DNA of 64,000 bases from Povalibacter uvarum (GTDB taxonomy: Bacteria > Pseudomonadota > Gammaproteobacteria > Steroidobacterales > Steroidobacteraceae), in assembly GCF_014202975.1 (NCBI RefSeq), contig NZ_JACHHZ010000006.1:496001-560000 (forward strand), written 5' to 3'. Below the pieces are notes generated by a model. That model made no database searches. It saw nothing but the letters and a program-made list of their open reading frames with translations, and was not told where the DNA came from. Shown piece by piece: positions 10,610 through 25,551 of the stretch. The position numbers and the translations under genes are program-made. How positions within the stretch are numbered: the first letter of the stretch is position 1; each line of letters opens with the position of its first letter.

Positions 10610-10660
10610 GGAGGGCGGAGACACCGACGAGGTCAGGACGTTGGGGCCATCATAGCGGCC

Positions 10661-10694
10661 CTCCGTCATTCCCGCTTTCGCGGGAATGACGGAG
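10661..10694. repeat. Perfect 15-bp hairpin of the GTCATTCCCGC repeat family
   Basis: CTCCGTCATTCCCGC, a TTTC loop and the exact reverse complement form a 15-bp perfect stem in the gap between the response regulator stop and the kinase start. The GTCATTCCCGC...GCGGGAAT core is a common proteobacterial intergenic repeat. Inside this operon it could attenuate or stabilise the kinase message. There is no T-run, so it is not a classic terminator. Confidence 0.85.
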
Positions 10695-10700
10695 TGGCTT

Positions 10701-12071
10701 CTAGTCGCCCTCTCCTTCCTCCGCCCTGCCCGTCGCTTCCTTCAGCCCCAGTTTCTCCATGCGCCGGTACAGCGCCTGCCGGCTCAGACCCAGGTCGCGG
10801 GCCGCACGAGCGATCACGCCACGTGCACGCGCCAGCGCCTGCTCGATCTCGGCACGATCCGGTTCGCGTTCCGGCTCGGGCTCGAAGACGGGGCTTTGTG
10901 TGACGAGTCCGAGGTCCGCCGCCGTGATTTCCGACCCGGTCGACAGCAGCGACGACCGACGGATCGTGTTGAGCAGCTCACGCACATTGCCTGGCCAGTT
11001 GTGGGACAGCAGCGCACGCTCGGCGGACTGACTGAGCGGCCGGCCGCCTTCCAGGAAGTGCCGCGCGAGAGGCAATACGTCATCCGTCCGCTCCGCCAGC
11101 GGCGGCACTCGAAGTTCGATGACGTTCAGTCGATAGAACAAGTCCTCACGGAACCGTCCGTCCGCGATTCCAGCCCGAAGATCCGCGTTGGTCGCACTGA
11201 CCACCCGGACTTTGACACGGCGAGTCACGCTGCTGCCAAGGCGTTCGAATTCGCCAGTCTGCAACACGCGCAGCAGCTTCGCCTGGCCTTCGAGCGACAG
11301 GTTGCCGATCTCGTCGAGAAAGAGTGTGCCGCCGTCAGCCGCTTCGAACCGGCCTTGCCGCACCTTGGTCGCGCCAGTGAAGGCACCCGCCTCAGCGCCG
11401 AACAGCTCGGCTTCCATCAGATCTTTCGGGAGAGCGCCGACGTTGACCTTCACGAAGGGACCGCTGCGGACCGACGAATTCGCCTGGATGATCGCCGCGA
11501 TGATTTCCTTTCCGGACCCGTTGGGCCCCGTGATGAGCACGGGCACTTCGGCCGGTGCGACGTGCGTGGCCTTGGTGACCAGATCACGCATCGCGTCACT
11601 TTCGAAGACGAGCCCGCACAGATCGAATCGCGCAGTCAGCGCGGCTCTGGATTCCGCACGCTTCCGAACGGCTCGCTCCTTCTCCACCGACAGCTGTCGC
11701 AGTTCGAGCAGGTTGCGGACAGTCGTCAGCAGCCGGGCATCGTCCCAGGGCTTTGCGAGATAGTCCGCGGCACCCGCCTTCACGAGCTCGACGGCGGTTT
11801 CCAGATGCGTCCATGCCGTCAGCAGAACGATCGGAAGCGTCGGGTGTCGTTCGCGGATCGCGCGAAACAGCGCGACACCTTCTTCGCCCGATGTCGCTTC
11901 CTTGCGGAAATTCATGTCCTGGAGAACGAGATCGACCTCGTGCGAAACAAGAGCGCGCATTCCTTCGGCCGGCCCGTTCGCCGTCAGGATGCGATGACCC
12001 TGCAGCGAGAGCAGCACCTCGAGCGCAGTCCGTACTGCGTCGTTGTCGTCGATGATGAGAATGGTAGACAT
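10701..12071 (-). CDS. NtrC-family sigma-54-dependent response regulator
   Basis: A 456-residue protein with three modules: receiver (Asp52 in LVLQDMNF, Lys108 in LAKPWD), AAA+ sigma-54 activator (Walker A GPNGSGKE at 182-189, GAFTGA at 229-234, Walker B FLDE at 251-254) and a C-terminal Fis-type HTH (GVIARAARDLGLSRQALYRRMEKLG). GAFTGA is the loop that contacts sigma-54, so the protein should act only at -24/-12 promoters. A good match to such a promoter lies at 17305-17321, ahead of the transporter genes of the same operon. Autoregulation of the whole unit is therefore likely. The spacing to the upstream permease is 34 bp. Confidence 0.95.
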   Translation of the reverse strand: MSTILIIDDNDAVRTALEVLLSLQGHRILTANGPAEGMRALVSHEVDLVLQDMNFRKEATSGEEGVALFRAIRERHPTLPIVLLTAWTHLETAVELVKAGAADYLAKPWDDARLLTTVRNLLELRQLSVEKERAVRKRAESRAALTARFDLCGLVFESDAMRDLVTKATHVAPAEVPVLITGPNGSGKEIIAAIIQANSSVRSGPFVKVNVGALPKDLMEAELFGAEAGAFTGATKVRQGRFEAADGGTLFLDEIGNLSLEGQAKLLRVLQTGEFERLGSSVTRRVKVRVVSATNADLRAGIADGRFREDLFYRLNVIELRVPPLAERTDDVLPLARHFLEGGRPLSQSAERALLSHNWPGNVRELLNTIRRSSLLSTGSEITAADLGLVTQSPVFEPEPEREPDRAEIEQALARARGVIARAARDLGLSRQALYRRMEKLGLKEATGRAEEGEGD

Positions 12072-12105
12072 AGCGGCGTCACACCTTACACGCCCGCGCG
12101 TTCAT

Positions 12106-13317
12106 TCACACGGTTCGGGTGGCGATCGCAGGTGGAATCGCTGCGGCCCGGCGGGCCGGAACGAATACGGCGATCTGGCCGAGGATCCACAGCAACACCA
12201 CCCCTGCAACGGGATAGAGCGGCTCCAGGCGCGGCAGCGAGTAAGTGCTGCTGAGCCAGTGACCGAACGCGAAGGCCAGCACCAACCCCAAAGCAACGCC
12301 GCCGGTCGTCAGCAGCCAGTTCTCGATCATGAAGTACCGGATGATGTCGATGCGGCGCGCACCGACCGCACGGCGCGTGCCGATCTGCTTCGTGCGCACG
12401 CTGACGTGGAAGCTCGCCAGGCCAACGATACCGAGTGCGGTGACGAGCACCATCAGCGAAACGATGACGCTCAGGAATGCAACCATGCGGCTGTCGGCGC
12501 GATAGCTGCGCTCCACCCAGTACGTGTGCGGGCGCACCCAGGTCACGGCGCGATTCAGATTCGATTCCGCCAGTTTTTTCTCGACCTCGGGCACGAGCTG
12601 GTCGCGACGCCCCGGCTCCGTGCGGATGGCATAGCGGATCGTCGGGCCGTTCGACAGGCGCGGCTGCAGCATCACGTTCGACGGCTGATCGAACCCTACC
12701 CATGCACCGAGCATGTTCTCGATCACGCCGATGACGATCGCCGATTGACCGAGATTGTCGTAGATGGGTTTGCCGAGCGCGGGGCCGTCGCCGAACATCT
12801 GTTGCGCGACAGCCTGCGTGATGATCACGGACGGAGCGAAGTCCGAGTTGGTCGGATTCTCGTTGTACTGGATCTCCGCTTCCGTGAATGCGCGACCTTC
12901 GATGAGCTTGACGCCGAGCGCGTCCACGCCGTGTTCATCCACGAAGTAGATATTGCTCGTCGTCGGATTGGGCTGCGGCGTCGGCGGCTCGATCGTGTAG
13001 CCGCTCTGCCGCCCCCCGCCCGACATCGGGATTCCATTGAGCGCAGTGACGGCGACCACGCCCGGTATCGCGCGCAGCATGTCGACGTCGCGCCGCACGG
13101 TGTCGCGATGGTCGTAGTTCGGCCCGAATCCGTAGCTTTGCGCAAAGATCAGGTTGGCCGAATCGATGCCCGGCGGCCGGCCGATCTTCTCCACGCGCTG
13201 CATGATGATGAACACCGCGTTCGCGACGACGGCCAGGGTCAGCGCGATCTGCAAGCCGACGAGAAAGACGCCGGTCTTGTTGCGGAGCATGGCGCTGAGG
13301 ATGGGACGGAATTCCAT
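12106..13317 (-). CDS. ABC transporter permease, FtsX/MacB type (second permease)
   Basis: About 403 residues. A first membrane helix (FLVGLQIALTLAVVANAVFI) is followed by a large extracytoplasmic domain and three C-terminal helices (VIVSLMVLVTALGIVGLASF, WLLTTGGVALGLVLAFAFGHW, VAGVVLLWILGQIAVFVPARRAA). This is the MacB_PCD plus FtsX topology. The ATG at 13317 (MEFRPILSAMLRNKTG) has an AGG element about 8 bases upstream and is preferred over a longer frame to 13350. With the neighbouring permease it probably forms a heterodimeric mechanotransmitting transporter driven by the adjacent ATPase. The substrate is unknown. Confidence 0.88.
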   Translation of the reverse strand: MEFRPILSAMLRNKTGVFLVGLQIALTLAVVANAVFIIMQRVEKIGRPPGIDSANLIFAQSYGFGPNYDHRDTVRRDVDMLRAIPGVVAVTALNGIPMSGGGRQSGYTIEPPTPQPNPTTSNIYFVDEHGVDALGVKLIEGRAFTEAEIQYNENPTNSDFAPSVIITQAVAQQMFGDGPALGKPIYDNLGQSAIVIGVIENMLGAWVGFDQPSNVMLQPRLSNGPTIRYAIRTEPGRRDQLVPEVEKKLAESNLNRAVTWVRPHTYWVERSYRADSRMVAFLSVIVSLMVLVTALGIVGLASFHVSVRTKQIGTRRAVGARRIDIIRYFMIENWLLTTGGVALGLVLAFAFGHWLSSTYSLPRLEPLYPVAGVVLLWILGQIAVFVPARRAAAIPPAIATRTV

Positions 13318-13424
13318 GGGAGAACCTCGAAAGCTGTGAGCTGTGAGCAATGAGCCAGAAGTTACCGATTCGTACGTGTCCTGATCTGGCCAGCCGCTCG
13401 TAGCTCGCGACTAGCCGGCTTGCT

Positions 13425-14744
13425 TCACTGTGTCTTCAAATACGCGGCCGGCTGCACCCGGCACACCCGCCACGTCGGGTACAGCCCCGCGAGCACTCCG
13501 GAGGCGATCGCGATCACGAGCGCGGTCAACGACATCGTGACGTCGAGCCGCGTGAGCGTGTCGTAGTTCTCGTAGAGCTGACGGACGCCCAGCAATCCGA
13601 GGCCAGCGAGGCCGATGCCGAGAACGCCGCCGGCGATGCCGATGACGCCGACTTCCACGAGATGCTGATTGAATATCGTCTGGCGCGTGGCACCGAGAGC
13701 GCGCCGCAATCCGACGAGCGGTGCCGAACCCAGGAACTTGGCGAGCAGCAGTCCGATCATGTTCAGCAGGCAAACCGCAAGGAACATGAACGAGAGACCG
13801 ACGAGGACGCTGTTGTCGCTCGCGACGACGCGATTGATCTCGAGCCACTCTTCCGGTGTACGCAGCTTGTTGTTGAGCGGACGCTCGAAACGACCGAGCT
13901 TCTTCTGTTCCTGCACGTAGCTGTCGATGAAGCTCTGGTAGGCCTCGACCTTGTCGCGCCCCTTCAGCTCGACCCAGTACTGGATCCACACGCAGTCGCT
14001 CTCGAGGAAGTCCTGGAACGAGTTCAGCGGCTGCGTGCGCCAGCAGTTCACGTTGCCGCCCGGCTGGACCTGATCGATCTGGCCGATGTTGAAGGGGACG
14101 AACGCTTCCTCGATGCCGTCGAACGAACCGTTGTTCAGATCGTAGAACTTCGGTGTCGGCGTCCACTCGGCCAGAACGCCGATGACGTTGTAGTCCTTGC
14201 CATCGAGGCGGACGTTCTTGCCGACGCTGTCCTGGCCGCCGAAGATCTTGTCGTTCGTTTCCTTCGACAGCACGACGACGCGCTGCGCACCCTGATCCGC
14301 TGCCGCATCCCAGCCGCCGCCGTATTCGAACGGCACGTCGAAGATCGAGAAGAAGTCCTTGGTCGTGAGACGTGCTTCGACGAGGAACGGCTTCACGCCG
14401 AGTGCCGGGTCGCTTTCGACGACGAACGGCCCCTTGCGCATCATCACCTGTCGCGACGGAATGTCCGACTCGAACAGCGCCATCGCATCGCGATACGTCA
14501 GTTCATACGGAGGCAGCTCCGGGCGGCGATCGTCCCATGGCTGATTCGGATCCCAGTTGTCGAGCGTGACCGCGCGCAACACGTCGTTGCGATGCTCGAT
14601 CGGATTGCCCGACATCAGGCGATAGACCGTCAGCGTCGTGATGCACACGCCGACACCGAGCGCGATGGCGCCGATCATCAGCGCGGCAACGACCGGCGTG
14701 CGGCGCAGGCTCTTGAGGGCTAGGCGAACGTAATAGTTGAACAT
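13425..14744 (-). CDS. ABC transporter permease, FtsX/MacB type (first permease)
   Basis: 439 residues starting MFNYYVRLALKSLRRTPVVA. The N-terminal helix lies at about 18-42 and an extracytoplasmic MacB_PCD domain spans about 45-280. Three C-terminal helices follow, including VLVGLSFMFLAVCLLNMIGLL and MSLTALVIAIASGVLAGLYP. SAPLVGLRRALGATR is the characteristic cytoplasmic coupling loop of this superfamily. Having two different permeases beside one ATPase resembles the paired MacB-like exporters of Xanthomonadales and Acidobacteria. The gap to the next permease holds an AGCTGTG-type short repeat, and the gap to the ATPase holds an imperfect hairpin (about 14785-14838). Confidence 0.88.
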   Translation of the reverse strand: MFNYYVRLALKSLRRTPVVAALMIGAIALGVGVCITTLTVYRLMSGNPIEHRNDVLRAVTLDNWDPNQPWDDRRPELPPYELTYRDAMALFESDIPSRQVMMRKGPFVVESDPALGVKPFLVEARLTTKDFFSIFDVPFEYGGGWDAAADQGAQRVVVLSKETNDKIFGGQDSVGKNVRLDGKDYNVIGVLAEWTPTPKFYDLNNGSFDGIEEAFVPFNIGQIDQVQPGGNVNCWRTQPLNSFQDFLESDCVWIQYWVELKGRDKVEAYQSFIDSYVQEQKKLGRFERPLNNKLRTPEEWLEINRVVASDNSVLVGLSFMFLAVCLLNMIGLLLAKFLGSAPLVGLRRALGATRQTIFNQHLVEVGVIGIAGGVLGIGLAGLGLLGVRQLYENYDTLTRLDVTMSLTALVIAIASGVLAGLYPTWRVCRVQPAAYLKTQ

Positions 14745-14850
14745 GAGAGAGTGACTTCAGGTGTAAGTGTCGACTTCGTTCATTCCCGCGAAGGCAGGAG
14801 GCCATCGTTCGCAGCCGATGGCCGCCTGACCTTCGCGTTCCTGAACCCCC

Positions 14851-15570
14851 TCAGACTCCGGCCGCCACGGCTTCCGGGCGGATCAGCGGCTTCGCCGCGA
14901 ACGGCTGCAGGTCCGTGACCTGACCGTCCATCACGTGAACGTTGCGATGCGCACGGCGCGCGAGCTCAGGATCGTGCGTAACCATCACGATCGTCGTGCC
15001 GCGACGGTTGATGTCTTCGAGCAGGTCGACGACCTGCCGTGCCATCAGCGAATCGAGGTTACCGGTCGGTTCGTCCGCCAGCAGAAAGCGCGGCGTACCC
15101 GCGAGTGCACGAGCAATCGCCACGCGCTGCTGCTGACCGCCCGAAAGCTGCGCGGGAATGTGCTTCATGCGCGAAGCCAGGCCGACGAGCTCGAGCGATT
15201 CGGTGATGCGCTTCTTGCGCTCGGCCGCATTGAATCCGCGGTAGCGCAGCGGCACATCGACGTTGTCGAACAGATCGAGGTCCGGAATCAGGTTGAAGCT
15301 CTGGAAGATGAAACCGATCTTCTGGTTGCGGATGCGCGAGCGATCGTCATCGGAAAGCCGGCTCACATCCTGGCCATCGAGCTGATACGTGCCGCTGTTG
15401 AAGGTCTCCAGCAGCCCCGCGATGTTGAGGAACGTCGTCTTGCCCGAACCCGACGGCCCCGTCACGGCCACGAACTCCCCTTCCTTCACATGCAGGTTGA
15501 AGTCCCGCAGCGCATGCGTCTCGATGAGTTCCGTTCGGAAGACTTTGCTGATGTTCTGCATGTGAAGCAT
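14851..15570 (-). CDS. ABC transporter ATP-binding protein, MacB/LolD type
   Basis: 239 residues with all motifs intact: Walker A GPSGSGKT at 38-45, Q-loop FIFQSFNLIPDL, signature LSGGQQQRVAIARAL, Walker B FLLADEPTGNLD and the H-loop VTHDPELARRA. The LADEPTGNLD form and the length are typical of the LolD/MacB/FtsE clade, which powers FtsX-like permeases rather than channel importers. A GAGG element lies 5 bases before the ATG. It is encoded between the adaptor and the two permeases, so together they should form a tripartite-like export or envelope-remodelling machine. Confidence 0.94.
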   Translation of the reverse strand: MLHMQNISKVFRTELIETHALRDFNLHVKEGEFVAVTGPSGSGKTTFLNIAGLLETFNSGTYQLDGQDVSRLSDDDRSRIRNQKIGFIFQSFNLIPDLDLFDNVDVPLRYRGFNAAERKKRITESLELVGLASRMKHIPAQLSGGQQQRVAIARALAGTPRFLLADEPTGNLDSLMARQVVDLLEDINRRGTTIVMVTHDPELARRAHRNVHVMDGQVTDLQPFAAKPLIRPEAVAAGV

Positions 15571-15590
15571 AAGGACCTCGAAGCGCTTGA

Positions 15591-15701
15591 CGGTTAGCGG
15601 TTAGCGGTTGGTTCAGAAAAAAGAACAGCATTCACTGGGACTGGGCGTGGGTTGGCGACTTTCCGGTTCTGACTAACCGCTAACCGCCAACCGCCAACCG
15701 C
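15591..15701. repeat. Inverted pair of GCGGTTR heptamer arrays in the efflux operon
   Basis: Three 7-mers (first one short) at 15591-15610 face four inverted copies at 15674-15701. The right array abuts the stop codon of the adaptor gene. The element fills the 130-bp gap between the adaptor and ATPase genes of one operon, so it is probably transcribed and could fold into a long hairpin. Confidence 0.85.
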
Positions 15702-15702
15702 T

Positions 15703-17019
15703 TCAGTCCGTCAATCTGACCGTTGCGGCACGTTCGAACTCGCCGAGGTTCGAAATGATGATCCGGTCGCCGGGGCTGAGCCCTTCGAGGATCTCCACTT
15801 CGTTGACGCTCGTGCTGCCCGTGCGGATCGTGGCGCGGGTGGCGATGTCATCCTGCACGACGTAGGCGACGCGGCCGCCGCTGGTGTCGAGGAACGGGCC
15901 GCGGGCGACCTTCAGGACGCCGTCGCGCTGTTCGAGCACGATGCGGGTGGACAAGCGCTGGTTCTGACGCAGGCCGCGCGGGACTTCGCCGGAGAAACGC
16001 AGCCGGCCGGTGACCTGGCCGCTTCGCACTTCGGGGGACACCGCGCTCACCAGCGCTGCGAATTTCTGCGTCGAGTAGACGACTTCCGCGTCCATCCCGA
16101 GCTTCAGGTCGTCGGCGTAGGTTTCCGGCACCTGGAACTCGACTTCGAACGCGGTGAGATCCACGACCGTGATGACGGCGGCGTTCTGTGCGACCGCTGC
16201 GCGTTCATTCACCGCGAGCGTTCCGACGATGCCGTCAACCGGCGATTTGATTTCGAGATCGCCGACGCGGCGCTGCAGCTCCTTGACGACCAGGCGCTGA
16301 CGATCGCGTTCGAGACGACGTGCGCTCAGCTCGAACTGCAGGCTTTCTTTCTGCAGCTCCGCGTTCTCGACCGAGTGCTTGTGATTGACGGCGGCGGCAG
16401 CGGCCTCGTCACGCGCTTTCTCATAGTCGCGCTCGCTGATGAGATGCTTGCTCCAGGAATCCTCGGCACGACGCTGCTCGCGCTGCGCTGCCTGAATCTC
16501 GACGTTCGCGAGGTCAATCGTCTGCTGATTGGTCAGCAGCTGGCGACGCGTGTCGATGCTCTGGCGCTGGACCGCCACTTCGAGACTGGCCAGCGTTGCC
16601 TGCTCGCGTTCGAGCTCATTTTTGAGCTCCGGGCTGTCGATCTGCGCGAGCGGCTCGCCCTTCTTCACTGTGTCACCGGCCTGCACGATGTAATGGACCG
16701 TGCCCGGTGCAACCGCGAACAGCGTCGGGCTGACGGCCGCAACGACGGTGCCCTGAGCCGAGACGTCGCGCGTGAACTGTCCGCGAGTCACTTCAGCAAT
16801 TCGCACACGATCGAGGGGAATCGAGACCTCGGCGCCCAGCCAGTTCCTGACCAGCAGCACGAGGATGATGAGGACCAGCAGTCCGCCGACGCCCGCGGCA
16901 ATGAACTGATACCGGCGCTTGCGCTGCAGCGGCTCCTGGTCGACAGGCCGGTCCTGCGCCGAGGTGTCGCGAATGCGCGTGACCTTCTCGCGATCGCCGG
17001 TGGGAAGTGCGGAAATCAT
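15703..17019 (-). CDS. HlyD/RND-type periplasmic adaptor (membrane fusion protein)
   Basis: 438 residues. A cytoplasmic N-terminus is followed by one membrane helix (about 39-58, LLVLIILVLLVRNW). A lipoyl-like half-motif (AVAPGTVHYIVQAGDTVKKGEPLAQIDSPEL) then leads into a long alpha-hairpin of coiled coil (about 125-250), the second lipoyl half (IKSPVDGIVGTLAVNERAAV) and beta-barrel/membrane-proximal domains. This is the layout of MacA/HlyD adaptors that bridge an inner-membrane transporter to an outer-membrane channel; no TolC homologue is encoded in this window. Its ATG overlaps the stop of the small upstream gene by one base (TGATG), which implies translational coupling. Confidence 0.93.
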   Translation of the reverse strand: MISALPTGDREKVTRIRDTSAQDRPVDQEPLQRKRRYQFIAAGVGGLLVLIILVLLVRNWLGAEVSIPLDRVRIAEVTRGQFTRDVSAQGTVVAAVSPTLFAVAPGTVHYIVQAGDTVKKGEPLAQIDSPELKNELEREQATLASLEVAVQRQSIDTRRQLLTNQQTIDLANVEIQAAQREQRRAEDSWSKHLISERDYEKARDEAAAAAVNHKHSVENAELQKESLQFELSARRLERDRQRLVVKELQRRVGDLEIKSPVDGIVGTLAVNERAAVAQNAAVITVVDLTAFEVEFQVPETYADDLKLGMDAEVVYSTQKFAALVSAVSPEVRSGQVTGRLRFSGEVPRGLRQNQRLSTRIVLEQRDGVLKVARGPFLDTSGGRVAYVVQDDIATRATIRTGSTSVNEVEILEGLSPGDRIIISNLGEFERAATVRLTD

Positions 17020-17258
17020 CAGCCACGCTCCTGGTGAGTCGTCGCACAGGCTTCCTCGGCATCGCGCGGCAGGTCGAGCGCGTTGCGGACGTCGTGCCGG
17101 GTCATCAGCGTTTCCAGGTGCGCGATCTGCTGCTGCTCGATCGTCGTATCCCTATCGACCGAGCGAGCCGGAGGCGCCATCAACAGGACGGCGAGCGCCC
17201 CCGCACTGACGGTCATTGCCGATAACCGGGCCGTAAACTGGATTGCCGCTGTCTTCAT
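17019..17258 (-). CDS. Small exported protein heading the ABC efflux operon
   Basis: 79 residues from the ATG at 17258, which has a strong GGGAGCAGGA ribosome site. The N-terminus is a signal peptide (AMTVSAGALAVLLMAPPARS). The mature part of about 50 residues is charged and helical (DTTIEQQQIAHLETLMTRHDVRNALDL) with one Cys near the C-terminus. Its stop overlaps the adaptor start (TGATG). No family is recognised. Position and coupling suggest a periplasmic accessory or sensor peptide for the transporter or kinase, but that is inference. A longer frame back to 17438 runs through the promoter region and is rejected. Confidence 0.7.
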   Translation of the reverse strand: MKTAAIQFTARLSAMTVSAGALAVLLMAPPARSVDRDTTIEQQQIAHLETLMTRHDVRNALDLPRDAEEACATTHQERG

Positions 17259-17304
17259 GATCCTGCTCCCGCGCACCTGTCCGGGTGTCGCTTGCCTACC
17301 TACG

Positions 17305-17321
17305 TTGCACGGGCTGTGCCA
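17305..17321 (-). promoter_or_regulatory. Predicted sigma-54 (-24/-12) promoter of the efflux operon
   Basis: On the minus strand the sequence TGGCACAGCCCGTGCAA matches the sigma-54 consensus (TGGCAC-N5-TTGCA, GG and GC separated by 10 bases), with only one T of the -12 box changed to G. Transcription would begin near 17295, about 37 bases before the ATG of the small exported protein. The operon encodes its own NtrC-type activator, which supports the call. Confidence 0.75.
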
Positions 17322-17391
17322 GGAGCGAAAAATGGGGAAATTCCGCGGGAAAAGCGCGGTTCTGGGGTGGCCGGGGAAGCGGCCGTCCGGG

Positions 17392-17442
17392 TGTCCGGGC
17401 GGGTGGCCGGACAGGCAGCGGACACTTTTGGCGGACACTTTT
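17392..17442. promoter_or_regulatory. Candidate upstream activator site: TGTCCGG inverted repeat plus GCGGACAC direct repeats
   Basis: TGTCCGG (17392-17398) and CCGGACA (17407-17413) form a perfect inverted repeat with an 8-bp spacer. Beside it the 12-mer GCGGACACTTTT occurs twice (17418-17429 and 17431-17442) with a 13-bp period. All share the CGGACA half-site. The centre lies about 105-135 bp upstream of the predicted start, which is the usual distance for an NtrC-type enhancer. Confidence 0.65.
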
Positions 17443-17518
17443 CCGGGGAGGTTCAGTACAATGCGCGCCCGCGCGGGCCGCCGTTGCCCATGCGCTATTC
17501 TTCAGCTTCTCAGTACAC

Positions 17519-17595
17519 GCGCCCGTAGCTCAGTTGGATAGAGCATCTGGCTTCGAACCAGAGGGTCGGGAGTTCGAATCTCTCCGGGCGCGCCA
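17519..17595 (+). tRNA. tRNA-Arg (anticodon TCG)
   Basis: A 77-base cloverleaf including an encoded CCA. The acceptor GCGCCCG (17519-17525) pairs with CGGGCGC (17585-17591), followed by discriminator G and CCA. The anticodon stem TCTGG/CCAGA encloses CTTCGAA, so the anticodon is TCG and reads CGA codons. The T-arm is GGGAG-TTCGAAT-CTCTC. A TACAAT -10-like box (17457-17462) with a GC-rich discriminator lies upstream. The 3' part from the anticodon loop onward is duplicated at 20446, which marks an integration site. Confidence 0.97.
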
Positions 17596-17596
17596 T
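17551..17596 (+). repeat. attL: 46-bp direct repeat formed by the tRNA-Arg 3' half
   Basis: The 46 bases from CTTCG in the anticodon loop to the T after CCA are identical to 20446-20491. Flanking bases differ on both sides (GG before, ATAA after; TT before, TTCA after). A tRNA 3' half from the anticodon loop is a classic tyrosine-recombinase attachment core. The island side restores a complete tRNA at this end. Confidence 0.92.
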
Positions 17597-17736
17597 ATAA
17601 ATCAATAAGCTACAAAATTTTTGCTGAGTTGGATCCGAGGTAGCCTTCAGGTGGGTACCGTCATCCGATTGGCCATCGACCGTTAGTCGACGCCGACGTG
17701 AGAGGCACAGTTCGGTAGCCACAGGTGCATAGACAC

Positions 17737-18318
17737 ATGGAAGCGCAAGAAATAATCGACGCCTTCAGGCGCCAAGTCGCACAGCTTGAAGCGAAAGGCA
17801 TGACGCAGGTGCAGGTGGTGGCACTGGCGGCTTACCTCGACGCACTTCAGAAGGACGCAGCCAATTCCAACGAGCATCGCAAACGAGAACACGAAGGGCT
17901 GCTGGCGCAGTACGCCGCTGCGAACGAACAGAGTATCGAGATGTTTCGAGCGGTGCTCGAAACCGGCAAGACTGGGCTGCAAACGCTGCTAGTGATCAAC
18001 GGGGGAGCCGTAATTGCCTTAATGGGCGTCATGAGCAATCTCGCAACTAGGTCCGGTGGCGATCTGCTTGCACGGTACCTCGCTCTGCCACTCCTGCAGT
18101 TCGGCATCGGTGTGCTTTGCGGGGCAGTTGGCTTTGCATTTCGCTACTTCAGCCAGGCGTGTTATGCGGCGGCTGATGAGGGTGAAAAGAATCGTTACAC
18201 CACCTGGGGTGACTGGCTGCGCTACACAGCAATCGCCGTTGGCATTTCTGGTTACGTTCTTTTTGGGTTCGCGTTGGTGAATGCATATCACGGCGTTCTC
18301 TGGTCCTTCACGCGGTGA
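17737..18318 (+). CDS. Island membrane protein with helical N-terminus and three TM segments
   Basis: 193 residues from the ATG at 17737, which has AGGTG 9 bases upstream; a GTG at 17725 is an alternative. The first ~75 residues are charged and predicted helical (EIIDAFRRQVAQLEAKG, then EHRKREHEGLLAQYAAANEQ). Hydrophobic stretches follow: GLQTLLVINGGAVIALMGVM (about 90-110), LALPLLQFGIGVLCGAVGFA (about 125-147) and YTAIAVGISGYVLFGFALV (about 170-188). The LLVINGGAVIALMG segment resembles one found in uncharacterised membrane proteins of bacterial mobile elements. The function is unknown. It lies 24 bp ahead of the next gene, so the two form an operon. Confidence 0.75.
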   Translation: MEAQEIIDAFRRQVAQLEAKGMTQVQVVALAAYLDALQKDAANSNEHRKREHEGLLAQYAAANEQSIEMFRAVLETGKTGLQTLLVINGGAVIALMGVMSNLATRSGGDLLARYLALPLLQFGIGVLCGAVGFAFRYFSQACYAAADEGEKNRYTTWGDWLRYTAIAVGISGYVLFGFALVNAYHGVLWSFTR

Positions 18319-18342
18319 TAGCTAGTTACTGAAAGGCACGCA

Positions 18343-19113
18343 ATGCGCGACCCTCACGTCGAAGCCATTCATTACAAGGTCGGATCTGCGGAAACGATCT
18401 CGTACAACAATCCAAGGCCGATTAACTTCTCCAATCACCTCGGAGAGTTCACGCTGTCGGATGGCTATCTTCGAGTGATTCCAGTGGAACACTTCGCCAG
18501 CGCGAACGAGGCGCGCGCGGCGATTGATCCATTTCTTAGCGCGTGGGAGATCAGCACCGATCTCAACTCGAACTTCGGAATGGTTCGCTTCGAATTCGAG
18601 CGCGTTGAAGTCGTGGACCGCGCGCCACCTGAGCCGGGTGGTTCTATTGTTTGTAGCCTCGAAGGGGCGTCGATGGTGATGATCGGCAGCAGCGCAGTTG
18701 TACGCCTCACATGCAGCGAATACCCAAACCCGCCCACAGCCTTCAGCGCCACGACAGACGTAACGGCTGCCTACCGAAGGTGGTTGCGGTACCGGGCTGG
18801 AAACGAACCGCTTCAGTCCATGGCTTACTTCGTTCTGACACTGCTTCAGACCGCCGCTGGTGGGAGAGCACTCGCTTCGCAGATATTTCAGATCGAACGC
18901 AAGATCCTAGACACGATGGGTCACCTGAGTTCGACGAAGGGGGATGAGGCGACCGCAAGGAAAGCGAACAACCCGGGGCAATTCCAGGATCTGTCTCCCG
19001 CTGAGAAGCAATGGCTGGAGGAAGCGGTACGGCGTGTTATCCGAAAGCTCGGAGAGCACGCTGCCGGCTCACCGGGGACACTCATCACGATGGCGGACCT
19101 TCCGCAGATTTAA
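18343..19113 (+). CDS. Island protein of unknown function
   Basis: 256 residues; GAAAGG lies 8 bases before the ATG. There is no signal peptide or membrane helix. The first ~140 residues look like a beta-rich domain (FTLSDGYLRVIPVEHF, MVRFEFERVEV, SIVCSLEGASMVMI). The rest is helical, with the conserved-looking stretch YRRWLRYRAGNEPLQSMAYF followed by LLQTAAGGRALASQIFQI and a charged C-terminus ending in LITMADLPQI. No catalytic motif is recognised. It is translated from the same operon as the membrane protein and converges on the PIN-like gene. It could be a sensor or partner of the membrane protein. Confidence 0.75.
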   Translation: MRDPHVEAIHYKVGSAETISYNNPRPINFSNHLGEFTLSDGYLRVIPVEHFASANEARAAIDPFLSAWEISTDLNSNFGMVRFEFERVEVVDRAPPEPGGSIVCSLEGASMVMIGSSAVVRLTCSEYPNPPTAFSATTDVTAAYRRWLRYRAGNEPLQSMAYFVLTLLQTAAGGRALASQIFQIERKILDTMGHLSSTKGDEATARKANNPGQFQDLSPAEKQWLEEAVRRVIRKLGEHAAGSPGTLITMADLPQI

Positions 19114-19151
19114 GGGACCGCGTGCGAAGTTCAGATCGCACGGACGCCGGT

Positions 19152-20297
19152 TCACTTCCTGTGGCGACGGTGCTCCTGAAGCGCCTTCTGCATCGCCTCG
19201 AAGCGTGGCCGGAACTCCTCGTACAAAGCCTTCCGCTCTTCGTCGGTCATCTTCGGCTTAGTATTTCTCTTCGGAGGTCCGAAATTTTTCTGCCAGACCG
19301 TCGCCGCGTGGGAGTCGATTGACGGCGGCGGCTGCGATCCGTAATCGTGACGGTGACACACGCGTTCCTCTTCGGACAGGGATTGCCACCATTCAGCCAA
19401 TCGCGCCATATCTGCCTTCAGCACATCGGCCGGTACGACTTCCTGTTTGAGTCGCAGCATTTCGGAAGCGACATCCAGCTGCAATTGATCACCGGTGGAG
19501 AAGGCGTGGCAAAAGGGCAGATATCGCAAGTACTCGAGGTCAATCCAGTTCGTCTTTCGCGTTGTGATCGCGCCGACCTGCAGGCCGATGTAGAAGGTCA
19601 TGCTGACCCGCAAGAAGTGATGAGCGTACGGCGCGAACTGTTGTAGCGTGCCTACTCGTTCCCGATCCCAGCGCAACATGATTGCGGCTCGGAGCCGCGC
19701 GGGCACCTTCGCTTCCAAACTCGCGAGCGAGACGAACAACCGCTGATACGTCGGCTGCGCGAGCATCGTATCGACGAACTGCACCACGTCGCGAATCGAT
19801 TTCAGACCCGAGAGATTCGGGTGAAGTTTCCGCAGTTGCTTCTGAAAAGCTTCCATATCGAGCGACTTGATCGACTCTCGATAGTGCAGCGACTGAGCCC
19901 GCTCATCGTCTGTGAACCGCCGGACGTGCCATCGGAGAACTGCGTCGAGTTCCGGGGGATGGTCGAAAACGATACCGTACCCCCCGGTCGGATCCGGGAC
20001 ACGAATGCCACCGGGCATGGGAATGCGACCTTCCATTGGGACCGGATGACCCATCAGGCTGGCCAAGGCGCAGTCACGCGCATCCGAGCACACCCTCGGA
20101 TGAGCCACATGCAGGTTGCGCGAAAGTGTCGCGACCACGCCGTCCGCGCGCTCGGCCTCATACTTCGACAGATCCCCCAGCAACTCGAAGAAGAGCACCG
20201 GCGGAGCAACGACCATATAGTGCATGCCAACCCGACTCAGCTCCGCGTGACTGAGACGGTGTAAAGAAGACTTGTCGAGGAGCAGGATCGGTCCCAT
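19152..20297 (-). CDS. PIN-like domain protein in the tRNA-Arg island
   Basis: 381 residues from the ATG at 20297. The N-terminus ILLLDKSSLHRLSH (Asp8) followed by APPVLFFELLGDLSKYE (Glu38, Asp42) has the order of PIN-fold nucleases. Far downstream come WIDLEYLRYLPFC (Asp253) and HAFSTGDQLQLDVA (Asp270), which look like the third and fourth acidic positions of PIN domains. A long helical insert (about 110-240) separates the halves. The C-terminus is highly charged (DEERKALYEEFRPRFEAMQK ... HRRHRK). A metal-dependent RNase/toxin or defence effector role is inferred from fold-like motifs only. A perfect 17-bp palindrome sits 4 bp upstream of the start. Confidence 0.75.
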   Translation of the reverse strand: MGPILLLDKSSLHRLSHAELSRVGMHYMVVAPPVLFFELLGDLSKYEAERADGVVATLSRNLHVAHPRVCSDARDCALASLMGHPVPMEGRIPMPGGIRVPDPTGGYGIVFDHPPELDAVLRWHVRRFTDDERAQSLHYRESIKSLDMEAFQKQLRKLHPNLSGLKSIRDVVQFVDTMLAQPTYQRLFVSLASLEAKVPARLRAAIMLRWDRERVGTLQQFAPYAHHFLRVSMTFYIGLQVGAITTRKTNWIDLEYLRYLPFCHAFSTGDQLQLDVASEMLRLKQEVVPADVLKADMARLAEWWQSLSEEERVCHRHDYGSQPPPSIDSHAATVWQKNFGPPKRNTKPKMTDEERKALYEEFRPRFEAMQKALQEHRRHRK

Positions 20298-20300
20298 CAC

Positions 20301-20317
20301 CGAAGTTTATAACTTCG
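20301..20317. promoter_or_regulatory. Perfect palindrome upstream of the PIN-like gene, possible operator
   Basis: CGAAGTTTATAACTTCG is a 7-bp inverted repeat around TAT, ending four bases before the ATG at 20297. Its position over the leader or promoter suggests an operator or an RNA hairpin that controls translation of the PIN-like protein. No repressor is identified in the island. Confidence 0.5.
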
Positions 20318-20445
20318 ACTAGCGCCGCGCTGAAGGTCGCCTGCCGCGAGCCGCCCACGCAAATGAAAGCGGCCCACGGCAGGACTTCGCTCGGATCTGG
20401 CAGCGGCAGACAACCATGGGACAATCGAGGAAACTATTCTTCTTT

Positions 20446-20491
20446 CTTCGAACCAGAGGGTCGGGAGTTCGAATCTCTCCGGGCGCGCCAT
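20446..20491 (+). repeat. attR: second copy of the tRNA-Arg 3' half
   Basis: Identical over 46 bp to 17551-17596 and not preceded by the 5' half of any tRNA, so it cannot be a gene. It marks the distal end of the island. The DUF6152 gene begins (3' end) 45 bp further on, as expected for ordinary chromosome resuming after the insertion. Confidence 0.92.
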
Positions 20492-20536
20492 TTCAAAGCC
20501 GTGACCGCAAGGCGCCCAGTCCTGAGCGCGTGACGC

Positions 20537-21559
20537 CTAGCGCTCAAGGCACTCGTAGGGCTTCACGGATTCATTGGCTCGTGCCATCCATGACTTGGTG
20601 AGCTCCATCGGCCGCGTGAAGTTCACCGGGTCGGTGACGATCATCGTGTACTGCAAGCGGGATCCGTCGGCCGCGGGGGTGAAGCGTTCGACGATGGACG
20701 TTGCAGGACTCAACGGCGTGCCCTGGTGATCGAAATGGGCCCACGTAATGCCATCGGTGGCGACGACGAGAGTGTCGCCCTCCCAATGCCCGATCGAGCG
20801 CCCGAGCAGACCTTTTTGCAGCGACTCTCGCCGTGTATCGCCCGTATGGATGACCCGGACAGCGTCATAGATCTCCATCTTCAGCAGGATCGTGCCTGCC
20901 TGGCGCACGAATTCGAACGGATACGGATTGTCCATGATCGTAGGCATGCCGACCGGCGAGCAGCCCTGGGTGACGGAGTCGTTCACGGGATCCCACGCGG
21001 CCGCCTTGCGGCGAGCGGCGTCCGTGAGCGGCGGTTGTTCAGGATTCCAGGCCAGGAACTCATCGAACCGTGAACTCCAGACTCGAAAAATCCCCGACCT
21101 GGAGGACTCCAGGTTGCGTTGATCGAACCAGTTCGTCTCTGATCCGAGCGGTGCCGTGGTCCAGCGGGGCACTCCCCCGGGCTCGAATAGAAGCTCCCTC
21201 CCATCGGCCTGCAGCAGATTCAAGCCAAGCAGACGCCCCGGACCCCGTCGCGAGGGATGACCGGCTACCCGCACCTTGTCGCCGACGTGGAGTCCTTGAG
21301 CCGTCGCGTTCGTTCGTCGCATCACGCTCAAGGCGCTGCCTTCGATATCGACGATGACTGGCTGGCCGGTCGCATCGGTGCCCGTCCGCATGCGGATCCG
21401 CACATGCGGATTCCGCCAACTCACTTCGACGAGCGTGCCCTCCATCTCGACGACCTGCTGAAAGTCGTACTCGGTCGGTGCGTGATGCGCTTTCGCGCTC
21501 GCAATGCACATCGCACTGACGACGATGATGAGCGAGTGCCTCACGATGCATCTTGCCAT
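20537..21559 (-). CDS. Exported DUF6152-like protein
   Basis: 340 residues with a signal peptide (SLIIVVSAMCIASAKAHHAP). The N-terminal mature part matches DUF6152: YDFQQVVEMEGTLVEVSWRN PH, RIRMRTGTDATGQPVIVDIE and GLHVGDKVRVAGHPSRRGPG. The remainder (about 130-340) contains DPVNDSVTQGCSPVGMP and VGWEGDTL-like phrases (SIGHWEGDTLVVATDGITW) typical of a companion beta-rich region often annotated hypothetical. It is presumably periplasmic. The function is unknown; such genes are frequent in several copies in environmental gammaproteobacteria. It is a single gene next to the island. Confidence 0.8.
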   Translation of the reverse strand: MARCIVRHSLIIVVSAMCIASAKAHHAPTEYDFQQVVEMEGTLVEVSWRNPHVRIRMRTGTDATGQPVIVDIEGSALSVMRRTNATAQGLHVGDKVRVAGHPSRRGPGRLLGLNLLQADGRELLFEPGGVPRWTTAPLGSETNWFDQRNLESSRSGIFRVWSSRFDEFLAWNPEQPPLTDAARRKAAAWDPVNDSVTQGCSPVGMPTIMDNPYPFEFVRQAGTILLKMEIYDAVRVIHTGDTRRESLQKGLLGRSIGHWEGDTLVVATDGITWAHFDHQGTPLSPATSIVERFTPAADGSRLQYTMIVTDPVNFTRPMELTKSWMARANESVKPYECLER

Positions 21560-21661
21560 GGTGGACCCGGTGCTTCGCCGTTGACGCCGCGATCCTACTC
21601 TATGACACGTGTAGTAGCAACGACCTCACCTGTAGTCCAGTGTACAAGCAGCTGGTGAGAT

Positions 21662-22492
21662 TCAAGGATCTCGATCTGGCGCAGGGTTGACCGTTTCCGC
21701 CTCCTCATGCGTCGGCGGCCACGCCGACGCATCGATCCCGCTGCGATACGCGTGCCATGTCGCATGACCGATGAGCGGCATCAGAATCACGAACCCGACG
21801 AGGAACGTTGCGAAGCCGATCAACACGAGGCACGCGATCAACGCGCCCCACAGCGCCAACGTCAGCTTGTTACGCAACGTCGCATTGATGCTGGTCACGA
21901 CCGCGGTGATGGCATCCGTGCGTCGATCGAGCAGCATCGGAAGCGAGAATGCGGTCGCGGCGAGAACGATGGATGCGAAGAACAGGCCGACCAGCGCTCC
22001 GATGCCGAAGTAGGCGAGCAGGTCGGTCCACGCGTCGATCGCATGATCGGGCTGAAAAATGCTCATGACCGTAGCGGCGCGGGCCCAGACCAGAAGAACG
22101 ACGAGCAGGCAGAGGCCGAGCACGAGTGTATCCGGCAGATGCGACCGACCCTCCTGGAGGCTGTACGAGAGTGTGGGCTTGCGGCCGATCTCGAGCTGGT
22201 AGCTGATGGAATACAGGCCCATCGCAAGGAACGGGCCGATGAAGACGAAGCCCGTCGCGAGGCCGAGATACAAAGCAAGCGTGCCGAAGCGCCAGGTCGC
22301 GTACGCGATCAACGCACTCAGCGCAGTGAGCAGCATTCCGTAGAAAAGACTCGGCAAACCCGCGCGGCGCAAGTCGCTCCATCCCATGCGCAGCCAGTGA
22401 AGCGGCGCAGACGGCGCAAGCACTCGACATGGCGCGGCGAGCGGCAGCAAATCGAGATCGACGCCTGCATTGCCCGGTTGTTGTTCTGGCAT
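21662..22492 (-). CDS. DUF2189 family integral membrane protein
   Basis: About 276 residues from the ATG at 22492, preceded by GGGGGTGG. An N-terminal ~35-residue tail is followed by about six hydrophobic helices, among them SLFYGMLLTALSALIAYATW, TLVLGLCLLVVLLVWARAA, IVLAATAFSLPMLLDRR and LALWGALIACLVLIGFATFL. LRMGWSDLRRAGLPSLFYG and GPFLAMGLYSISYQLEIGRKP are diagnostic of the DUF2189 family, small inner-membrane proteins of unknown role found widely in proteobacteria. The longer frame upstream to 22588 lacks a good start. Confidence 0.85.
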   Translation of the reverse strand: MPEQQPGNAGVDLDLLPLAAPCRVLAPSAPLHWLRMGWSDLRRAGLPSLFYGMLLTALSALIAYATWRFGTLALYLGLATGFVFIGPFLAMGLYSISYQLEIGRKPTLSYSLQEGRSHLPDTLVLGLCLLVVLLVWARAATVMSIFQPDHAIDAWTDLLAYFGIGALVGLFFASIVLAATAFSLPMLLDRRTDAITAVVTSINATLRNKLTLALWGALIACLVLIGFATFLVGFVILMPLIGHATWHAYRSGIDASAWPPTHEEAETVNPAPDRDP

Positions 22493-22638
22493 CGCCCACC
22501 CCCTGAAGTGGTTCGCACTGGCGATGCCATCACAGGGCACTATGGAGAACAAATAGGGAAACCCCGTGAATACTAGGGGGAACCGCATGTCCTCGGCTCA
22601 GCTGGAGACTGTGCGAGTACCTTCTCCAATGCCTGGGC

Positions 22639-22656
22639 CGTGTCAAAGGCATGACA
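22639..22656. promoter_or_regulatory. Inverted repeat GTGTCA-N6-TGACAC in the DUF2189 upstream gap
   Basis: A perfect 6+6 inverted repeat around AAGGCA lies in the 323-bp divergent gap between the DUF2189 gene and the small membrane protein gene. It could be an operator for either gene. The rest of the gap shows no other clear signal. Confidence 0.35.
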
Positions 22657-22815
22657 CCTGAATCCACCGCAACGACTCCAGGGAGCAGCACGCCACTCGT
22701 CGTTGTCAACCCCGACGATCGCAAGTGCGTGCGCATTCTCAATAATCGACTGTCAAACGCAGATGCGCGCGCGGATTCGGGATGATGCGCGCCGTCGAAG
22801 TCGAGATGAGTGTTC

Positions 22816-23082
22816 ATGCAGACCCTTCTACGTCCTCTCGTGGCACCGGCTGCCTATTGGCGAACGTTGCTGCTGGTTCCGTCGGTTGGATTGCTCGTCG
22901 ATACGGTCTTTCAGGACCGCCTGGCTGTGCTGCTTTCGACGCTGGCGTGCGCGTTCATCTTCCGCGGTTACGAGCGTCGACGATGGATTCATGCGCCCGC
23001 GGAGTTTCTGAGCGGTGATGTCATCCTGCGGTTGGGGTTGGTGTTCGTGGTGACGAGCGTGGCGCAGCTGACGGGGGCGTGA
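22816..23082 (+). CDS. Small membrane protein of unknown function
   Basis: 88 residues from the ATG at 22816 (MQTLLRPLVAP). There are two hydrophobic segments, TLLLVPSVGLLVDTVF and LAVLLSTLACAFIF, then a basic turn (RGYERRRW) and a third hydrophobic end (VILRLGLVFVVTSVAQLTGA). No family is recognised. It faces the SDR gene across a pair of hairpin repeats that likely end both transcripts. Confidence 0.6.
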   Translation: MQTLLRPLVAPAAYWRTLLLVPSVGLLVDTVFQDRLAVLLSTLACAFIFRGYERRRWIHAPAEFLSGDVILRLGLVFVVTSVAQLTGA

Positions 23083-23087
23083 TGTCA

Positions 23088-23194
23088 CTCGCGCGAAAGC
23101 GTGAGTCCATCCGGATTCGGATAGGATGGATTCCCGCTTTCGCGGCAATGACGGAGTGCTTCGCATGACGTCCGACTGAAGTCGGACCCACAGG
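23088..23194. repeat. Two hairpin repeats in a convergent gap, likely bidirectional terminator
   Basis: An inverted pair of GTCACTCGCGCGAAAGCG and GGATTCCCGCTTTCGCGG units (about 23092-23152) is followed by ACGTCCGACTGAAGTCGGAC (about 23168-23187), a second repeat family. Both lie between the convergent small membrane gene and the SDR gene and leave only a few unexplained bases. Confidence 0.7.
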
Positions 23195-23195
23195 C

Positions 23196-24188
23196 CTAAT
23201 ACCCGCCGATGATCGGCAGGATCTCGCCCGTGATGTAACTCGAGCACTGCGACGAGGCCAGAAACACATACGCCGGTGCAATCTCCTCCGGTTGCGCCGG
23301 ACGTTTCATCGGCGTATCCGAGCCGAACTTGGACACGTCAGCGGCCTTCTTGTCGGCCGGGTTGAGCGGCGTCCACACGGGGCCTGGCGCAATTGCATTC
23401 ACGCGAATACCGCGTTCGATCAACTGGCCCGCCAGCGATCTCGTGAACGCGTGAATGCCGCCCTTGGTGGTCGAGTAGTCCAGAAGGTGCTTGCTCCCTT
23501 CCAGGCCAGTCACTGATCCCGTGTTCAGAATCACGCCGCCCCGCTTCAGGTGCGGCACGGCCGCTTTCGTCATGTAGAAGTAGCCGTAGAGATTGGTCTT
23601 GAGCGTTTCGTCGAAATGCTCCTCGGTGATGTCTTCGATGGACTTCGCGTGCAACTGAAACGCCGCGTTGTTCACGAGAATGTCCAGCTGACCGAACTCG
23701 TCGACGACCTGTTCGATGGCCTTGGCACAGAACGCCTTCGCGGTCACATCGCCCGCGATCAGCAGGCACCGGCGCCCTTCTTCCTCCACGGCACGCTGCG
23801 TTTCCTTTGCGTCGCCGTGTTCTTCCAGATACACGATCGCGACGTCGGCCCCTTCCCGCGCGAACAACGTCGCGACTGCGCGGCCGATGCCGGAGTCTCC
23901 ACCGGTGATCAGCGCGACTTTATCGAGGAGCTTCTCCGAACCTTTGTAGAAGGGCGCGTCGTACATCGGTGCCGGCTCGAGTTGCGCCTCGCTGCCAGGT
24001 TTCGCGATGTGCTGTTTGGGAAAAGGCGGGACTGGATATCGACGCGCGCCTGTTTGCGGCGCCGAGCCGGATTGCTTCGCCTGCGCCTTTTGATCCTTCC
24101 TGTCGATCCCACGCTGGAGCTTGCGATGCACCGAAGCCGTCGAGGATGGTCTTTGCCCCTCACGCCGCCGAGCCGCAGTTCGCGCCAT
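23196..24188 (-). CDS. Short-chain dehydrogenase/reductase, YghA/general-stress type
   Basis: 330 residues from the ATG at 24188, which has a good GGAGAGGATC ribosome site. A basic, disordered N-terminus of ~75 residues precedes PMYDAPFYKGSEKLLDKVAL. A Rossmann fold follows with TGGDSGIGRAVA (cofactor), LDILVNNAAFQ and the YSTTKGG active site (Tyr-x3-Lys), with GSVTG supplying the Ser, and APGPVWTPLNP. The PFPKQ and MYDAP...KGS segments are typical of the YghA / B. subtilis YhdF-YhxC stress-induced subfamily, which probably uses NADP(H) with aldehydes or sugars. It ends the minus-strand unit next to a terminator-like repeat pair. Confidence 0.92.
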   Translation of the reverse strand: MARTAARRREGQRPSSTASVHRKLQRGIDRKDQKAQAKQSGSAPQTGARRYPVPPFPKQHIAKPGSEAQLEPAPMYDAPFYKGSEKLLDKVALITGGDSGIGRAVATLFAREGADVAIVYLEEHGDAKETQRAVEEEGRRCLLIAGDVTAKAFCAKAIEQVVDEFGQLDILVNNAAFQLHAKSIEDITEEHFDETLKTNLYGYFYMTKAAVPHLKRGGVILNTGSVTGLEGSKHLLDYSTTKGGIHAFTRSLAGQLIERGIRVNAIAPGPVWTPLNPADKKAADVSKFGSDTPMKRPAQPEEIAPAYVFLASSQCSSYITGEILPIIGGY

Positions 24189-24317
24189 GCGTTGATCCTC
24201 TCCGCAGATGTATCGCCAGAAGGGAAAGATCACCCATACGCAATTGTTCCTGCGTCGCCCACGAACTTTCGACAGCGATGGGCGTTGTCACAGCACATCA
24301 CGTCGTGAGGATCCGTC

Positions 24318-24476
24318 ATGTCGCTGGGCACCATTCTTCTCATCGTTCTCATCCTGCTGCTCGTAGGCGCATTGCCGTCGTGGCCTTACAGCACCGGGTG
24401 GGGCTACGGTCCCAGCGGCCTGCTGGGTCTCGTGGTCGTCGTGCTCATCGTTCTCCTGCTGATGGGGCGACTATGA
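24318..24476 (+). CDS. DUF3309 family small membrane protein
   Basis: 52 residues: MSLGTILLIVLILLLVGALP, a WPYSTGWGYGPSG turn and a second hydrophobic helix LLGLVVVVLIVLLLMGRL. This is the full-length signature of DUF3309 proteins, a two-helix hydrophobic miniprotein of unknown role often associated with stress regulons. AGGA lies 8 bases before the ATG. It is divergent from the SDR gene. Confidence 0.88.
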   Translation: MSLGTILLIVLILLLVGALPSWPYSTGWGYGPSGLLGLVVVVLIVLLLMGRL

Positions 24477-24516
24477 GAGCGGGCAGCAGCGCGACGCGCG
24501 CAATCGACGATGAGTT

Positions 24517-24590
24517 TTCCGTCACTCCCGCGCAGGCGGGAGTCCATCCTGATGCAGATTCAGATGGGCTCCCGCTTGCGCGGGAATGAC
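24517..24590. repeat. Inverted pair of GTCACTCCCGC repeats between convergent genes
   Basis: GTCACTCCCGCGCAGGCGGGAG and TCCCGCTTGCGCGGGAATGAC face each other around a GATGCAGATTCAGATG spacer. They lie between the convergent DUF3309 and hemerythrin genes, so they probably serve as a terminator. A TAGC-type short repeat follows at about 24607-24640. Confidence 0.75.
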
Positions 24591-24652
24591 TCGATACTGA
24601 CTACACCCTCTGGCTTGCCAGCTGATAGCTAGCTGGCCAGCCCGCTTCCGAA

Positions 24653-25189
24653 TCATGCATTCGCGTGCGTTCCCCGCTGCGTCCGCTTTCTGCCGTTCGC
24701 CGATGACTCGCCCATCAGCTCCGCCTTACGGGCTGCGAGTTGTTCACCGAGTTCCTTCAGATCCATCTTGGCCTTCTTCGCTTCGGCGAACATGCCGCCG
24801 GGCTGCTCCTCTTCCTTGACGTGATGTTTGATCATTTCGGAGAGGACCTTCACCTTGGCATCGAAGAATTCTTCGTCCGGACCGGAGGCTTCGATCTGTT
24901 CGATCAGGCGCTTTGCGCCATCGTGTTCGACGATCGCCTCGTGATGAAGCTCCGTATCCTCGGTGGCTTCGAAGAACGCGGGATAGAGGATCTCCTCTTC
25001 GATCTGCGTATGGACCCGCAAGGCCAGGCAGATCTGAGCAGCGAGCTGCGTCTTGCGCGAGTCGGCGCGCGCCTTTTCGAACTCGCCGAACCATTTCTCG
25101 ACCTGACGGTGATCAGCCTTCAGGAGGCTGATTGCATCTTTGCGCGCAGTGCGGGTCGAGGCGCGACGCGCGGTGCTGGAACGTGGCAT
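24653..25189 (-). CDS. Hemerythrin-domain protein
   Basis: 178 residues. A basic N-terminal tail precedes a four-helix HHE cation-binding domain. Likely di-iron ligands are His27 (LLKADHRQVEKWF), His60 and Glu64 (RVHTQIEEEILYPAF), His89 (IVEHDGAK) and His122/123 with Glu127 (MIKHHVKEEE). The C-terminal ~40 residues are Lys/Ala-rich. This type is usually soluble and is linked to oxygen, NO or oxidative-stress sensing; no partner domain or operon neighbour shows its role here. Confidence 0.92.
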   Translation of the reverse strand: MPRSSTARRASTRTARKDAISLLKADHRQVEKWFGEFEKARADSRKTQLAAQICLALRVHTQIEEEILYPAFFEATEDTELHHEAIVEHDGAKRLIEQIEASGPDEEFFDAKVKVLSEMIKHHVKEEEQPGGMFAEAKKAKMDLKELGEQLAARKAELMGESSANGRKRTQRGTHANA

Positions 25190-25268
25190 GAAACTTCTCC
25201 TTGCGTTGGCTATCGAGAAGAGAGACGAGAAGGCAACGCGCGCGATCGGAGACAGTTCCTAAGGAGAA

Positions 25269-25296
25269 GCGGTTAGCGGTTGGCGGTTAGTGGTTA
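25269..25296. repeat. GCGGTTR heptamer array in a 360-bp divergent gap
   Basis: Four consecutive 7-mers (GCGGTTA, GCGGTTG, GCGGTTA, GTGGTTA) form an unpaired array in the gap between the hemerythrin gene and the Ser/Thr kinase gene. The rest of that gap (25297-25551) holds no convincing gene; a TACACT -10-like box at 25511 may serve the kinase. Confidence 0.75.
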
Positions 25297-25551
25297 GTTA
25301 GGAAAGGAGTCGAGGCGAGTTTGGGCGCTCTGGGACGGCGCACTCGTCGCAAGCGAACGGCAGGAAGAACTGGCCGTTCGTGCGCACACCGTTCATGACA
25401 TGACTGAGTCGCGAGAGATGTAAGCAATCCGCTCTCGTGGTCGTCCGTTCGGGTGCGTTGGACCCGCGGATCGCGGCTGTTCCGATGGCTCCCATTCGGT
25501 AAAAACCGTCTACACTCGGCGTCCCTCCGAGAACAGCAGGATGCTGTGCCA

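Follow-up and report, generated by a model that had tools for sequence, protein, structure and literature searches.

In the passages that two reports (PMC5704250, PMC3146451) devote to them, cis-mobilisable elements (CIMEs) keep both attachment sites, attL and attR, lack genes for integration and transfer, and are defined as decayed integrative and conjugative elements (ICEs) or integrative and mobilisable elements (IMEs). The corresponding passages of the second report also describe 15 ssrA islands of Dehalococcoides without integration modules. The segment considered here is a 2.9-kb island at a tRNA-Arg(TCG) gene of Povalibacter uvarum. It lies in a 64-kb stretch of contig NZ_JACHHZ010000006.1 (positions 496,001 to 560,000), which is called the window and in which coordinates are counted from the first base. 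The perfect repeat, the exact left junction, the foreign composition, the lack of an integrase gene, the element-type left end, and the integrase-bearing elements at the same core in related genomes suggest that the island is probably an integrase-less derivative, flanked by attachment (att) sites, of a tyrosine-recombinase element in the 3' half of the tRNA gene.

The repeat that bounds the island is rare in the genome and marks the tRNA gene as the target. A repeat search paired 17546-17601 with 20441-20496 at 93%, and the 46 bases inside this match are identical (Table 1). As a preliminary description of the locus had stated, one copy of this perfect repeat is inside the tRNA gene and the other has no 5' tRNA half. 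The tRNA-Arg(TCG) gene is the only tRNA found by ARAGORN in the whole window. A 40-base core pattern with up to three mismatches is matched at three places in the 6.32-Mb genome, namely attL, attR, and tRNA-Arg(ACG) with two mismatches, and a looser pattern finds one further tRNA-like place with three mismatches. Because the core is so rare in a genome of this size, the repeat is not a chance occurrence. Among 80 tRNA calls, in which overlapping regions are counted twice, only tRNA-Arg(TCG) and tRNA-Ser(GGA) have a 3' repeat of at least 15 bp within the stretch examined. The tRNA-Ser(GGA) gene (locus L097, G000:C1:1402900-1422899) lies next to an integrase, and its 32-bp 3' repeat is found 17 kb downstream. 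Elsewhere in the genome, at G000:C6:4761-9076, tRNA genes are densely arrayed on a single strand.

The composition of the island is foreign, and its left end is of the type found in integrating elements. The GC content is 57.7%, lower than in any of 555 overlapping segments of the same size from elsewhere in the window (60.4-64.9%). At third codon positions the GC fraction of genes 1 to 3 is 0.632, 0.656, and 0.715, as against 0.74-0.85 in 20 neighbours picked by hand. Close to the tRNA end is a site similar to those of integration host factor (IHF), scored against the IHF consensus WATCAANNNNTTR. An IHF-like site with 8 or 9 of 9 positions within 35 bp is present in three of the 70 distinct tRNA 3' flanks of the genome, those of the island's tRNA-Arg(TCG), tRNA-Ser(GGA), and tRNA-Arg(ACG), while 57 of 20000 random 35-mers reach such a score. 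The left end of the island also contains a repeat of 14-15 bases with copies 74 bp apart, which none of 100 shuffles matched, and this repeat may be an integrase arm site. A promoter scan found none (1.1 expected) along with five terminator-like sites (2.3 expected), and neither result was used. At the tRNA-Arg(ACG) gene (G000:C4:699891, about 9892-10000 of locus L104) a 9/9 IHF-like site abuts the tRNA. No integrase is seen there in the 0.8 kb before the contig ends, and the locus may be another element relic.

No gene for a recombinase is detected in the island. The locus had been described as cargo only, and this is borne out: none of the three open reading frames (ORFs) has a library match to a recombinase, and none of the seven PF00589 matches of the genome is within the island. 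Searches of the three proteins against Pfam, PHROGs, and NCBIfam found no match to integration or transfer genes and none to a replication primase or helicase. Trans-mobilisation had been proposed as well, but no candidate helper at a tRNA-Arg is seen in this genome: three of the seven PF00589 genes adjoin tRNA-Ser(GGA), tRNA-Thr(TGT), and tRNA-Ser(GCT), and no tRNA-Arg is present in the stretches fetched around any of the seven. A second copy of the island was not found in the genome.

Elements with integrases are found at the same core in other members of the family. Together with the IHF-like left end, they agree with the earlier proposal of a tyrosine-recombinase-type insertion in the 3' half of the tRNA. 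The core pattern with up to three mismatches, which also catches tRNA-Arg(ACG) along with a small number of other tRNAs, is matched in 199 of 217 family genomes. A non-random set of 24 tRNA-Arg(TCG) loci was compared, including this window and G002, a genome of the same genus. Nine of these loci have an IHF-like site scoring at least 8. The integrase of locus L180 has a match within the next 1.4 kb in six of the nine loci with such a site (L163 is the query's own source, and the matches in L173 and L176 are partial) and in one of the 15 loci without it (L164, also a partial match). The integrases of L180 and L175 both belong to PF00589, and both come from tRNA-Arg elements of another genus of the family. 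The L175 element has 8.3 kb between its cores and also encodes a D5_N protein; a different gene follows attL, and the integrase is at the attR end. The HigB-like gene of L180 belongs to PF05973.

A partly deleted copy in one genome of this set shows directly that loss of an integrase between kept cores is possible at tRNA-Arg(TCG). This copy (genome G939, contig G939:C80, locus L176) is 1.94 kb long and has both cores, and its left end is retained, at 87% over 148 positions. The integrase is cut to its last 40 residues, and there is no intact ORF in a stretch that is HigB-like at 80% over 102 residues. After the right core comes a second element-type end, whose IHF-like site scores 9/9, as would be seen in an accreted array. 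At locus L178 (G495:C72), three tRNA-Arg-type half cores are found within 7 kb together with an integrase-like gene, and the arrangement looks like a tandem array.

Comparison with G002 places the start of a variable region exactly at the tRNA. The G002 genome is collinear with the window from 8540 to 17596, with 75-81% identity, as far as the tRNA end. With up to one mismatch allowed, a single core is found in it, and a looser pattern has three matches, whose places are not listed; within the 98 kb of its contig that was compared with the window there is a single core match. The bases after the tRNA are TTTC in G002 and likewise after the attR of the island, but not after attL, so that the match is 49 bp long; this agreement represents three bases of evidence. 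Collinearity returns at window position 39616, leaving an unmatched stretch of 19.1 kb here (20492-39616) and of 31.2 kb in G002. The preliminary description had proposed a search for an empty site in close relatives. The left junction is indeed exact in G002, but the right side of G002 is a different variable region. To the right of the island, the protein family encoded at 20537-21559 on the minus strand has 19 matches in the genome.

The cargo consists of three genes, of which only gene 1 has a phage or satellite pedigree. Against Pfam, PHROGs, PADLOC, and NCBIfam, no island protein has a match better than an E value of 0.033. Relatives of gene 1 are found in phages, satellites, plasmids, and chromosomes (32 in genome contigs, three in viral contigs, two in plasmids, and one in phages), and the family members tested have no Pfam match above the cut-off. 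One of the relatives in viral contigs (L108) resembles the prophage of L124. In phage IPK a 47-bp tRNA-Pro(GGG) core is found between the integrase and the gene 1 relative. The relative is 155 bp after tRNA-Pro in Pandoraea commovens and 88 bp after tRNA-Ser in a Binatia contig. In Cupriavidus pauculus it is close to attR in an island of 10.7 kb, which has 46-bp cores and encodes a PF00589 integrase. At L114 the gene 1 relative is followed by a CCA-ending, T-arm-like fragment that is not matched to any tRNA, and at L112 and L133 an integrase-like gene, judged by eye, is beside it.

Genes 2 and 3 have few relatives. Gene 2, presumably in the same operon as gene 1, is present in one of 369 class genomes, namely its own. 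It has two distant relatives on plasmids and no match in viral contigs or phages. Gene 3 is present in two of 398 phylum genomes including its own, with a full-length relative in G589, and there is a partial relative on a Granulicella plasmid. Gene 3 searched alone had no match in genome contigs, viral contigs, or phages, and its alignment had none in viral contigs or PDB sequences. A match in G018 (E 9e-4, 65 residues) is in frame in a differently built 414-aa ORF and was discarded as chance.

The functions proposed earlier for the cargo are not upheld by the searches. The label PIN-like, which for gene 3 is based on a pattern of conserved acidic residues, is confirmed by no library: none of three family members has a PIN match in Pfam, and the PDB sequences gave no such match either. 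Residues D254 and D271 are invariant in three relatives. Single-sequence structure models were poor and unusable, with predicted local distance difference test (pLDDT) values of 36 (gene 3) and 39. Genes of a defence or addiction type had also been suggested, and PADLOC gave no anti-phage defence match for the island proteins (best E 0.033). In 188 fetched loci, own copies excluded, relatives of genes 2 and 3 (E 1e-3) never share a locus with a gene 1 relative, and a conserved three-gene system is therefore unsupported. Since relatives of the three genes never occur together and their functions are unmatched, a defence or addiction role is a guess. The likeliest guess is that the cargo is a phage- or satellite-type accessory set, for lysogenic conversion or anti-phage activity.

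Table 1. Features of the island and its tRNA target, in window coordinates.
Feature	Position	Strand	Basis or remark
tRNA-Arg(TCG), insertion target, 3' part forms attL	17519..17595	+	ARAGORN; Rfam RF00005, 71.2 bits
attL core (46 bp), from the anticodon loop through CCA and one further T	17551..17596	+	Repeat search, sequence read-off
IHF-like site, 8/9 consensus positions	17600..17612	+	In AT-rich left end, 77% AT over first 30 bases
Left-end repeat copy 1 (GGTAGCC..CAGGTG), candidate arm-type site	17639..17653	+	Self-alignment score 19, reached by 0/100 shuffles
Left-end repeat copy 2	17714..17727	+	Self-alignment
Gene 1, 193-aa membrane protein with three hydrophobic stretches and INGGA motif	17737..18318	+	Phage/satellite/plasmid accessory family
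Gene 2, 256-aa protein, function unknown	18343..19113	+	24 bp downstream of gene 1
Gene 3, 382-aa protein with conserved acidic residues	19152..20300	-	Convergent with gene 2
attR core, 46 bp, without 5' tRNA half	20446..20491	+	Repeat search, sequence read-off

The arrangement of the island suggests how it may have formed. A tyrosine-recombinase element would enter the 3' half of tRNA-Arg(TCG), and the segment would once have carried an integrase with tRNA-Arg specificity or have come in with the help of one. The integrase and any replication genes would later have been lost, leaving the three intact cargo ORFs. With both cores kept, the island could be excised in trans by the integrase of another tRNA-Arg element, or it could leave as a single unit together with an element integrating next to it, which is the CIME mode. 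If it is still mobile, the island would behave like a cis-mobilisable element.

Several observations weigh against descent from an integrase-bearing element. No genome was found that has this island or in which the right flank directly follows the tRNA, and G002 is not a clean empty site, as it is unlike the window for 31 kb past the tRNA. The deletion is not directly visible, since seven integrase queries found no integrase relic in the island (best E 0.03). The IHF-like site has just 8 of 9 positions, and 0.3% of random places contain a site of this kind. Nothing at the right end corresponds to the left-end repeat, and 88 of 100 shuffles reached the left-right score. Among the related loci, L174 has an IHF-like site without an integrase match, and the integrase of L175 is at the far end. 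The gene 1 relative of phage IPK is on the opposite side of the core from gene 1 of the island, and any tRNA at all is present in just nine of the 38 loci with gene 1 relatives.

Other explanations differ in what they say about the origin and the present mobility of the island. Deletion evidently produced the G939 copy, and the IHF-like site of the island is off consensus at one place, as might be expected if the island were dead, a deletion product beyond excision in which selection acts on the cargo only. Such a fixed relic is a sub-case of the integrase-less derivative as to origin, and it is a rival only on present mobility. Against fixation, which seems somewhat unlikely, stand the identity of the two 46-bp cores and the open state of all three ORFs. 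It is less likely still that the island is a non-autonomous mini-element, which never had an integrase in its present form and consists of att arms and cargo moved in trans, in the manner of miniature inverted-repeat transposable elements. Its three ORFs are full length, no integrase relic was found, the att core, IHF-like site, and left-end repeat are all present, and candidate helpers are found at the same core elsewhere in the family. On the other hand, such an element would have to be reconciled with the lack of a second copy in the genome, with PF00589 genes of which none is at a tRNA-Arg, and with a gene 2 confined to one of the class genomes and a gene 3 to two of the phylum genomes, own copies included.

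It is very unlikely that the island is a still mobile three-gene cassette that moves between tRNA-Arg(TCG) genes by means of integrases from other islands, with cargo that jointly forms an undescribed anti-phage or superinfection-exclusion system including a putative PIN-like nuclease. A local duplication confined to the 3' half of the tRNA, with no mobile element involved, would explain that this half alone is repeated, but the foreign composition, the element-type left end, and the integrase-bearing elements at the same core leave it next to no probability. Descent from a tyrosine-recombinase element is the probable origin of the island.

The island illustrates how compact a cargo unit between att sites can be with its ORFs still open. 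At one tRNA gene in one family there is a series of integrase elements, a partly deleted copy, and an integrase-free unit. Where some phages and satellites sit at tRNA genes, the gene 1 family may mark their ends.

The closest systems each share part of the organization of the island. Like CIMEs, it is flanked by attL and attR, with 46-bp perfect cores, and it has no matches to integration or transfer genes. Unlike them, it has gene 1 kin that point to phages, satellites, and plasmids, no ICE or IME parent was found, and no tandem partner is seen next to it. It would be a CIME in the strict sense only with ICE or IME descent and functional att sites. P4-like satellites and autonomous genomic islands are set apart from it by its lack of a tyrosine integrase of its own and of a primase or helicase match. 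The L175 and L180/L181/L186 elements have the same tRNA core and an IHF-like site at the left end, but they possess an integrase, and no relative of the three island proteins was found in them by tblastn. The G939 copy is at the same tRNA, has both cores, has lost its integrase, and is shorter than 3 kb. It differs in its visible integrase remnant, its HigB-like sequence without an intact ORF, and the 9/9 IHF-like site after its right core. The tRNA-Thr(CGT) island of Cupriavidus pauculus (L127) has a 46-bp core that likewise spans the anticodon loop to CCA, and a gene 1 relative, but it has a PF00589 integrase and more genes, uses another tRNA, and carries the gene 1 relative at the attR end. 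Overall the island is best regarded as a clear and small example, with uncharacterised cargo, of an already known kind, and it resembles the relics or hitch-hikers described for phage-type islands.

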